NCBI GenBank assembly: GCA_003457065.1
Contig: DMJQ01000074.1
Span: 2,945-10,888 of the forward strand
Length of the DNA stretch: 7,944 nt
Reading direction: 5' to 3'
From: Clostridiales bacterium
GTDB lineage: Bacteria > Bacillota > Clostridia > Tissierellales > Sedimentibacteraceae
Shown here: in pieces, positions 4,065-7,944 of the stretch
Numbering within the stretch: the stretch's first letter is position 1
Layout: every line of letters begins with the position of its first letter
Translations under genes and position numbers: made by a program
The notes under the pieces: generated by a model
Told to the model about the DNA's origin: nothing
Databases searched by the model: none
What the model saw: only the letters and a program-made list of their open reading frames with translations

Positions 4065-4274
4065 TCATTTGAATTTAACTAACGGCGACCCCGGATAATC
4101 AATGATTATCCGGGGTTTTATTTTAGGATAGGGCTTTATCTCATTTGTTCTTCCTAAAATATAATCTATTGATGTATTATAAAGATCAGCCAAAACCAAC
4201 AGATGCTCAACAGGTATGGATTGGAAGCCTCTTTCATATCTTGAATAAACAGTTTGTCGGATACCTAATATTTC
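4065..4274 (-). pseudogene. C-terminal half of a broken XRE-type helix-turn-helix regulator
   Basis: Read on the - strand from 4274, the frame gives EILGIRQTVYSRYERG, then PVEHLLVLADLYNTS and IDYILGRTNE. This is helix 2 through the end of a Cro/C1-type (XRE) DNA-binding domain as found in small Clostridia regulators of about 70-110 residues. The codon just before it is TAA (4277-4275), and no start codon or first helix precedes it in frame. The frame then runs on past the homologous part, through the SDR terminator hairpin, to TGA at 4067-4065; the real end was probably near 4130. The missing N-terminal part appears to be the fragment at 4485-4551 on the opposite strand. As it stands it cannot make a functional repressor. 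Confidence 0.7.
4088..4120 (+). terminator. Intrinsic terminator after the SDR gene
   Basis: ACCCCGGATAATC (4088-4100) and GATTATCCGGGGT (4104-4116) are perfectly complementary around the 3-nt loop AAT. They are followed by TTTTATTTTA from 4116. There is no A run on the left side, so it acts on + strand transcripts. It lies inside the read-through tail of the XRE fragment on the - strand. Confidence 0.92.
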
Positions 4275-6174: not shown

Positions 6175-7116
6175 CTATTGAATGGTTTCAGCCATTTTTA
6201 CTAATTCATCAGTGCTTATGCCGGAATCCACCGATGCAAAGAAATACATTACGCCGTTAATTTCTACATCTACGAATTTTTGCCCTTTGACAGCAGTATG
6301 GCCGTTTATTTCTATTTCTTCAATATCGCCTAAATCAGCGGAGAAAGCAGTGCTTTCATTCATATGGCGTAATTGGAGATACAAATCTTTGGTATGGTCT
6401 CCGTTGGTGAAATAAGCATAAGCATAATCACTGTCTTTTACAGGAGTCCCGCTTTCGTCATTAAAAAGCATCATTTGATAAAAGCGATACCCTTCAGGCA
6501 TATAGGAAGGGAGGGAAAAATCAAAATTAAGATATTCTCTGGCTTTTTCAGGGTCTGAAAATGAGGTCATATTCATTTCCCTTTGGGCAGCCTTTTCCTC
6601 TGCTGTAAGAGCTTCGATTTCTTCTATGGTGTTGCCGTTTTCATCGGTATATATCTTTACCGAAAGGGTAAGCTCCTGGCCTTTATTGTCATATATTCTT
6701 GTGTTTTCCTTCAAGGCCTCAAGAACATTGCCTTCATCATCGTACAATTTCCCTTCAAGGCTTTCAGGAATCGTATAATCTCTGTCTTCCGGTTTTTCAG
6801 TGCTGTTTATTTCCGATACAGAGTAATGAGCGTATTTGCCTACAAAGATTTCTTTAATTGTGGTATACAGCTCTTCTCCGTAAGAGGTCATAGAAAAGCC
6901 GAAAAACAACAGGGCCATTGCCCCTAAAGCCACCGCAGGTTTAAAAAGCTTTTTTCTAAACTTTAATTTATTCATAAAATACTGATCTCCTTCCGCTTCT
7001 TCATGAGCATTATTGATTTTTAATATAAGCCGATGCAATAGTTCTTCTTTGGAATTGCTTTCGGAGCTGAAATCTGTCCGCAGCAATTGTTCAATATCTA
7101 TATTTTTTTTATCCAT
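6175..7116 (-). CDS. Membrane-anchored anti-sigma factor, DUF4367-type
   Basis: The 313-residue product has the layout of a single-pass anti-sigma factor. A short cytoplasmic N-terminus (1-58, MDKKNIDIEQLLR onward) should hold the sigma factor, one membrane helix spans about 60-79 (AVALGAMALLFFGF), and the rest lies outside the membrane. The outer part ends in a DUF4367-like domain (about 198-313), with LPSYMPEGYRFYQ, the paired aromatic strand YAYAYF, INGHTAVKG and the closing STDELVKMAETI. There is no cysteine, hence no zinc anti-sigma (ZAS) motif. The 80-197 stretch is acidic and repetitive in D/E/G/N. The start ATG 7116 has AGGGGG 9 nt upstream and overlaps the end of the sigma gene's restored frame by 8 bp, which points to translational coupling. 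The signal it senses is unknown. Confidence 0.82.
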   Translation of the reverse strand: MDKKNIDIEQLLRTDFSSESNSKEELLHRLILKINNAHEEAEGDQYFMNKLKFRKKLFKPAVALGAMALLFFGFSMTSYGEELYTTIKEIFVGKYAHYSVSEINSTEKPEDRDYTIPESLEGKLYDDEGNVLEALKENTRIYDNKGQELTLSVKIYTDENGNTIEEIEALTAEEKAAQREMNMTSFSDPEKAREYLNFDFSLPSYMPEGYRFYQMMLFNDESGTPVKDSDYAYAYFTNGDHTKDLYLQLRHMNESTAFSADLGDIEEIEINGHTAVKGQKFVDVEINGVMYFFASVDSGISTDELVKMAETIQ

Positions 7117-7692
7117 TGCTACTGTCCCCCTTTTCCAATTCCTTTCTAAGTTTTTTCATGCTTCTGAATAGAATGACCCCTATATTGGAGGCTGACATGC
7201 CGGATATTTTGGCAATATCGGTATTTTTAAGATCCAATGAAAATTTTAGGCTGATGATTTCATGATTTCCCTTTCTTTTCTGCTTAATTTTGAAAGGGCC
7301 TTTATAAGCTTTGCGTTGCTTTCTTTCACGACGAGGATTTCCTCCGGCTCTTTGCCCAAAGATATAAAATTAGCTAAATATTCAAGAGAAACAAAGGTAC
7401 GCCTTTGCTTTTTTCGGTAATAATCATTTACGGTATTTTTAGCGATGCCCATGAGCCATGCTTCCAAATTTCCCCGGTCGGGGCGATAGGAGGGGTATTT
7501 TTCTATTAATTTTTCAAATACCTGGCTTACAAGGTCGCCTGTATCCCAATGATTATTGATTCTCAAGCTTATATAATTATATATCTGCTTATAGTGGGCC
7601 TCATATAATTGTTTAAATCTGCCGGCGTCAATGGCAATCTTTTCATTTTTACTCTCGGTTTTTTTGCCGGACATAGATATGGAAGATTCCAT
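7109..7692 (-). pseudogene. ECF-like sigma-70 family factor, frameshifted in region 4 by an 8-bp duplication
   Basis: ATG 7692 follows a perfect AAAGGAGG (7705-7698). The frame in place ends at TAA 7248-7246 after 148 residues. Residues 26-97 are sigma region 2: FKQLYEAHYKQIYNY, DLVSQVFEKLIEKYPSY, then RGNLEAWLMGIAKNTVNDYY and RKKQR. Region 4 begins at about 127 and reads LSRKEREIM before ending KSSA. One frame over, 7253-7109 continues without a stop as ISLKFSLDLKNTDIAKISG, MSASNIGVILFRSMKKLRKE, the missing helix-turn-helix that binds the -35 element. The cause is the tandem repeat at 7254-7269. Removing one copy restores an uninterrupted factor of 191 residues whose TAA (7111-7109) overlaps the anti-sigma ATG. 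As written, the product should bind core RNA polymerase weakly and fail at the promoter. Confidence 0.82.
7254..7269. repeat. Perfect 8-bp tandem duplication inside the sigma gene
   Basis: ATGATTTC occurs twice without a gap (7254-7261 and 7262-7269). On the coding strand the unit is GAAATCAT. One copy gives codons for REIISL, the standard sigma region 4.2 entry. Two copies shift the frame by +2 and bring in TAA seven codons later. Eight bases is not a multiple of three, so each gain or loss of a unit changes the frame. Confidence 0.93.
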
Positions 7693-7705
7693 AGATGCCT
7701 CCTTT

Positions 7706-7944
7706 CACAGGTGAATTCAATTATTGCGCAATATTTTTTATTCACATATATTAATACGTAAATTCATGAATTCCATTACAGCCTTTATGATAAGTTGCAG
7801 GAAAATGTATAAAACTGAAAAGCAAAAAGACTATTTTCAAATTCCATGGATATGAATATCATAAAAGAGATGCCGGGAAAATGAAAGCAAGATATTTCTA
7901 TAGCCTATAGTAAATTTCAAATAAAACAGTAATAAAAATCGTAT
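7706..7944 (-). promoter_or_regulatory. Upstream region of the sigma operon with two 12-bp palindromes
   Basis: No gene is visible between the sigma ribosome binding site and the window end. Two perfect palindromes, TATTGCGCAATA (7722-7733) and AATTCATGAATT (7761-7772), stand 30 and 69 bp upstream of the sigma start and could be operators. On the - strand there are several A/T-rich -10-like hexamers. I find no -35/-10 pair good enough to name, and no clear ECF-type autoregulatory promoter. The outer 170 bp show nothing else. Confidence 0.35.

Follow-up and report, generated by a model that had tools for sequence, protein, structure and literature searches.

The sigma/anti-sigma locus and its contig

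The stretch of DNA analysed here (7,944 nucleotides, referred to as the window) occupies the right-hand side of a contig of 10,888 bases (G000:C129:2945-10888) from a metagenome bin of 203 contigs and 3.28 Mb that is 87.3% complete and 6.1% contaminated. Its minus strand carries an ECF sigma gene whose reading frame is broken, followed by an anti-sigma gene. The features are, in the order in which they are read:

7754-7780, minus strand: predicted autoregulatory ECF promoter, TGTAATGGAA-N12-CGTAT, a conserved motif that continues as TAAT to 7750
7697-7703, minus strand: AGGAGGC, a Shine-Dalgarno-like sequence with 6/7 matches to AGGAGGT, 4 bases ahead of the sigma ATG
7246-7692, minus strand: truncated ECF sigma open reading frame (148 aa) with region 2 (Pfam) and the beginning of region 4
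7254-7269, minus strand: tandem 8-bp pair, GAAATCAT twice and exact on the coding strand (Tandem Repeats Finder)
7109-7261, minus strand: out-of-frame remainder of the sigma gene with the rest of region 4 and its helix-turn-helix, open and undecayed, with a weak Sigma70_r4_2 match
6175-7116, minus strand: anti-sigma gene (313 aa) with a C-terminal DUF4367, its ATG overlapping the old sigma stop by 8 nt

Contig C129 probably derives from another lineage in a mixed bin, judging by its genes, which are without close relatives in the genus of the bin. The anti-sigma gene was found in none of 24 same-genus genomes, the best same-genus match to the sigma factor reached 29% (E 3e-14), the nucleotidase at 762-2999 gave same-genus matches of 27-33% outside its LysM end, and the best same-genus matches to the Ca-ATPase lay at 51-55%. 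The serC gene of contig C84, which shares a short repeat with C129, was searched for in 18 same-genus genomes without a match.

Several further features of the contig were recorded. A MITE-like repeat, roughly 130 bases long and bounded by inverted ends TATAGTAAATTTCA, is found at 7906-7944 of the window and at L137:5620-5748, L136:5955-6085 and L139:3818-3956, and contigs C129, C140 and C2 terminate in it. Between 4060 and 5030 the window holds few genes and short remnant-like open reading frames; one at 4065-4199 (minus strand) resembles part of a repressor by eye and has no Pfam match. An Rfam search of the whole contig returned nothing at the gathering threshold. Two Ns immediately left of the first window base (L045:2943-2944) mark an assembly scar at which the Ca-ATPase frame is broken.

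An 8-bp duplication truncates the sigma factor

The original prediction described an exact 8-bp tandem duplication at the entry to region 4.2, a product that stops as KSSA after 148 residues, and an operon that otherwise keeps region 2 and an intact anti-sigma gene, and this observation is confirmed. Two copies of GAAATCAT occupy 7254-7269 with zero mismatch, and the open reading frame at 7246-7692 ends in ...REIMKSSA. Region 2 was recognized in the 148-aa product (PF04542, 60.5 bits against a cut-off of 24), and no Pfam match to region 4 was found in it. The anti-sigma protein is the same as the public protein P0012 at 312 of 313 residues, and the P0012 cluster comprises 11 members on 4 contigs, the longest of 3,757,330 bases.

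The number of 8-bp units determines the frame: two copies break it, and the intact alleles described below read through. The lost part had been put at about 47 codons of continuing frame. The frame does continue, and the two readings separate after residue 143, with 48 residues lost and MKSSA added. Taken alone, the 8-bp repeat is unremarkable and not rare. Dinucleotide shuffling of the window gave 0.15 perfect 8-bp pairs per shuffle, and 13% of 300 shuffles contained at least one; the 414,188 bases of 44 related loci contain 19, or 0.36 per 8 kb. From the sequence comparison, the remarkable part is instead the frame break relative to intact proteins that are 98-99% identical.

The lost region 4.2 is undecayed

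As had been claimed, the lost half is free of stops and of other decay, and its stop overlaps the start of the anti-sigma gene. The region 4.2 frame (-1) is open from 7369 down to a stop at 7109-7111, which together with the anti-sigma ATG at 7116 gives the 8-nt overlap. Searched as a separate piece, the out-of-frame part matched Sigma70_r4_2 at 20.6 bits, under the cut-off of 25.7; region 4 was matched in the full-length proteins P0002 and P0004. Its final 50 residues agree with both P0002 and P0003 at 49 positions, the sole difference being residue 150, which is Leu in the window and Ser in these proteins.

Region 4.2 of sigma factors reads the -35 element. A structural model of P0002, which has a low mean pLDDT of 57.5 overall and reaches 71-86 over residues 131-180, was used for helix boundaries in that part only and places helices at 138-149, 154-161 and 165-185. 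Since the window protein departs after residue 143, it would lack the end of the first of these helices and the last two, which form the helix-turn-helix. A PDB search with the model gave nothing at E 0.001 or better, and its top rows were ECF sigma factors. The sigma factor belongs to the TIGR02937 superfamily, its best profile being TIGR02952 (BldN family), below cut-off, and the nearest solved sequences are BldN (6dxo) and SigW (5wuq). The SigW alignment spans the P0002 residues that contain the three C-terminal helices.

Near-identical full-length alleles exist in other strains

A protein search with the 148-aa product returned 10 proteins, namely the 148-aa form itself (P0001, with 2 members on 2 contigs) and nine of greater length (186-195 aa). 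Three of the latter, P0002, P0003 and P0004 (99%, 98% and 86% identical, respectively), are full length at 191 aa each. Compared at the protein level, with the two pieces of the window gene aligned separately, residues 1-143 differ from P0002 at position 83 only and from P0003 at positions 28 and 32 only. Both sigma halves and the anti-sigma protein are thus nearly identical to public proteins, and the locus is undecayed. Beyond the frame break, P0002 departs from the window at residues 83 and 150 and P0003 at 28, 32 and 150, so these full-length alleles come from other strains and not from the same clone in a switched state.

Searches of genome contigs for the DNA of the intact alleles led to more distant relatives only. 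A search with the window protein gave 235 stretches with no relative among them, and a search with an alignment gave 44 relatives, the best at 58% (Candidatus Formimonas warabiya, the best named). Two of the 43 genomes searched from the class of Ca. Formimonas contained a match, neither of them near-identical, and viral contigs searched with P0003 contained none.

A predicted promoter motif is conserved and nearly confined to the operon

Upstream of the sigma gene, the window carries TGTAATGGAA-N12-CGTATTAAT, the full site TGTAATGGAATTCATGAATTTACGTATTAAT running from 7780 to 7750. In 44 of 68 distinct relatives, GTA-N18-CGT stands upstream of the sigma gene, with the consensus TGTAATGRAA-N12-CGTATTAAC. 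Scored with a matrix from which the window had been left out, the window site reached 25.0, against a best score of 13.3 in 30 shuffled windows, and with at most one mismatch allowed the motif had a single match in the window. The predicted promoter is thus intact, and autoregulation is predicted from this conserved upstream motif.

The motif was also searched in 18 genomes picked because they bear the sigma gene. The 27-base form had 20 perfect sites, one per genome in 16 of the 18 and two in the other 2, and 18 of these sites belonged to the sigma operon, in one case with an IS in between; a reversed control motif had no perfect match in the same genomes. The strict motif is therefore nearly confined to the operon's own promoter, and the suggestion that a whole regulon is switched finds no support. 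When two mismatches were allowed in a longer form of the motif, 17 of the 18 genomes matched and 4 of 21 sites lay elsewhere, the control also giving 4; there may be weaker targets as well. As a by-product, this sharply conserved, nearly operon-only motif of a Clostridia/Bacilli ECF family makes the function of the family testable.

Most related operons keep the frame, and some are damaged by other means

We compared 77 loci, 68 of them distinct and 41 at least 38% identical to P0003 in the sigma factor. The frame is open through region 4.2 in 39 of these 41 relatives, the exceptions being L109 and L074 (L114 denotes this locus too). A homologous anti-sigma gene follows the sigma gene in 35 of the 41; in the remaining six it is fused to the sigma gene (L052), cut off by a contig end (L053), deleted (L074) or without a match (L068, L073 and L131). 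In L114, from a Tissierellia MAG, about 1.1 kb is missing relative to L102 (5385-6502), with synteny on both sides, and this deletion removes region 4.2 together with the entire anti-sigma gene. L109 (4347-4852, Paenibacillus ehimensis) has region 4.2 in the -1 frame, with the break near query residue 140. The frame that matches the anti-sigma protein also has a stop just before the match in L109, so decay or a sequencing error is possible there. The entry to region 4.2 is where the break falls in the window as well as in L114 and L109; chosen post hoc, three such breaks make no rule.

Other lesions affect the same operon elsewhere. In [Clostridium] ultunense (L086:2632-4929), the promoter (2632) is separated from the sigma gene (4929) by an open reading frame with a transposase domain, and at L159:1501-2071 (G246:C77) a second promoter is followed by a gutted copy in which the start of the sigma gene runs into the end of the anti-sigma gene. 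As related operons have been damaged by means other than a repeat, loss of this sigma/anti-sigma system would appear to be tolerated.

Two loci, L054:1414-2967 and L052 (G220 and G219), encode the sigma and anti-sigma factors in one open reading frame of 517 aa with region 2, region 4 and DUF4367, and have the same promoter motif upstream. These natural sigma/anti-sigma fusions in one genus are a further by-product of the comparison, and other ECF/anti-sigma fusions have been described (PMC8999054).

A likely recent loss of function

Taken together, the results make it likely that the ECF sigma gene of the window, predicted to be autoregulated, is a loss-of-function allele of recent origin, created by the second GAAATCAT copy, and not a built-in switch. 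Replication slippage would have added this copy at 7254-7269, shifting the end of the sigma gene out of frame, such that the protein would stop at 148 residues without region 4.2. The shortened protein should be unable to recognize TGTAATG, the -35 half of the promoter of its gene; positive feedback would then be lost, leaving the operon at a basal level with the anti-sigma factor in excess. Such a loss may be tolerated, as the other lesions in related operons suggest, and slippage back to one copy would be possible in principle.

This reading draws on several lines of evidence. Near-identical versions of the protein, P0002 and P0003, are full length and match both pieces of the window gene apart from single residues, which favours recent, ordinary gene loss over an on/off switch. 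The anti-sigma gene is intact, the conserved promoter is kept and the lost part holds the helix-turn-helix. Moreover, 39 of 41 relatives keep the frame and related operons bear other lesions, and P0001 is known from two contigs, one of them longer than C129. The original prediction had taken the change to be either very recent or reversible, and recent it looks, the lost part, the anti-sigma gene and the predicted promoter all being undecayed. On the other side, decay is limited to the duplication and S150L, an appearance that a reversible switch would share; the breaks of region 4.2 in two relatives lie close to the same position, as would not be expected from plain loss; and frame-breaking Ns stand in the assembly just left of the window. 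The original interpretation is partly supported.

The alternative offered in the original prediction was phase variation, in which the gain or loss of one 8-bp unit by slippage would let cells turn the sigma factor on or off. We consider this unlikely and unsupported. One-copy-type and two-copy alleles do both exist at 98-99% protein identity, the sigma locus is otherwise undecayed, short in-gene repeats are able to switch (PMC4117637) and phase-variable sigma genes are known (PMC7911514 and PMC7241687). However, the intact alleles carry other substitutions, such that no isogenic ON/OFF pair was seen, and two-copy 8-bp pairs are common background. The comparison with relatives also weighs against a switch, as the two-copy repeat was present at this place in none of the 64 loci scored (of 73; nine on the other strand were left out), and related operons are damaged otherwise. 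Four loci, three of them distinct, have other short repeats within intact genes. In one study (PMC6686034), no revertants arose from a duplication in agrA. A slow variant of the switch, in which one copy would yield a sigma factor that fires its own promoter and two copies a region-2 stub under the anti-sigma factor, with both alleles coexisting and the entry to region 4.2 as a preferred breakpoint, to which the breaks in two relatives would point, appears equally doubtful. Were switching true, a sigma factor would be under the control of a minimal two-unit repeat.

There is a similarly small chance that the second copy is an assembly or consensus error in a mixed population and that the organism has one copy. 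Such an error is possible because the contig is probably misbinned and an assembly scar lies nearby: the Ns at L045:2943-2944 break the neighbouring Ca-ATPase frame, and the bin is fragmented and probably mixed. Against this, an exact 8-bp duplication is atypical of short-read error, and P0001 is recorded on two contigs, the longest of 13,025 bases compared to 10,888 for C129, although both may share reads.

It is very unlikely that the pieces still work, with the stub titrating the anti-sigma factor or acting on RNA polymerase, or with region 4.2 made separately through a restart at the TTG at 7237 or through frameshifting. Region 2 and the anti-sigma gene are intact, S150L, which is absent from P0002-P0004, creates a TTG 8 bases behind the early stop, and two relatives have lost region 4.2 or carry it out of frame from almost the same residues on (L074/L114 and L109). 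Yet L114 is without any anti-sigma gene, and a search for a separate C-terminal protein found none. Restart at the TTG was rejected because it has no Shine-Dalgarno sequence (3/7 matches), and programmed frameshifting because no suitable slip site lies at the repeat: the single in-frame slippery heptamer, TTTGGGC, stands some 110 bases upstream of the stop, and none was found near the repeat.

Finally, it is barely conceivable that the 8-bp pair is the footprint of a departed element, since, although 8 bp is a common length for target duplications and the same operon of the relative L086 contains an element with a transposase domain, no leftover bases separate the copies, none of the loci examined has an element at this site, slippage is the simpler route, and a footprint would explain the origin of the pair only.

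Comparison with known systems

Among literature matches screened by title, no paper dealt with this sigma/anti-sigma operon and those to the promoter motif were unrelated; an 8-bp duplication was absent among the matches listed. The locus shares with autoregulated operons of an ECF sigma factor and a membrane anti-sigma factor the presence of regions 2 and 4, an overlapping anti-sigma gene behind and a predicted two-part autoregulatory promoter, but it differs in the frame break that precedes region 4.2 in the window. The -35 half of its promoter is TGTAATG, compared to the AAC that PMC8103513 gives as classical.

Reversible frame changes of a related kind are known in Staphylococcus aureus, where icaC has a tetranucleotide repeat (PMC4117637). 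Like the window, this is a tandem repeat within a gene, and its copy number shifts the frame. That study showed changes in both directions as well as clinical isolates that differ in copy number, whereas here just two alleles, from different strains, are seen. Sigma factors are turned on and off by reversible DNA changes in S. aureus sigH (PMC7911514) and Clostridioides difficile sigD, in the flgB operon (PMC7241687). These changes involve a large duplication or form part of a phase-variable operon, in contrast to an 8-bp repeat inside a reading frame. In Agr-negative S. aureus, small rearrangements silence a regulator, as here, and some variants revert and others do not (PMC6686034); the regulator and organism differ from those of the window. 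If the sigma gene has undergone plain recent loss, it would be a further example of a regulator silenced by a small duplication, and its operon is one that relatives also carry in damaged form, though by other lesions.
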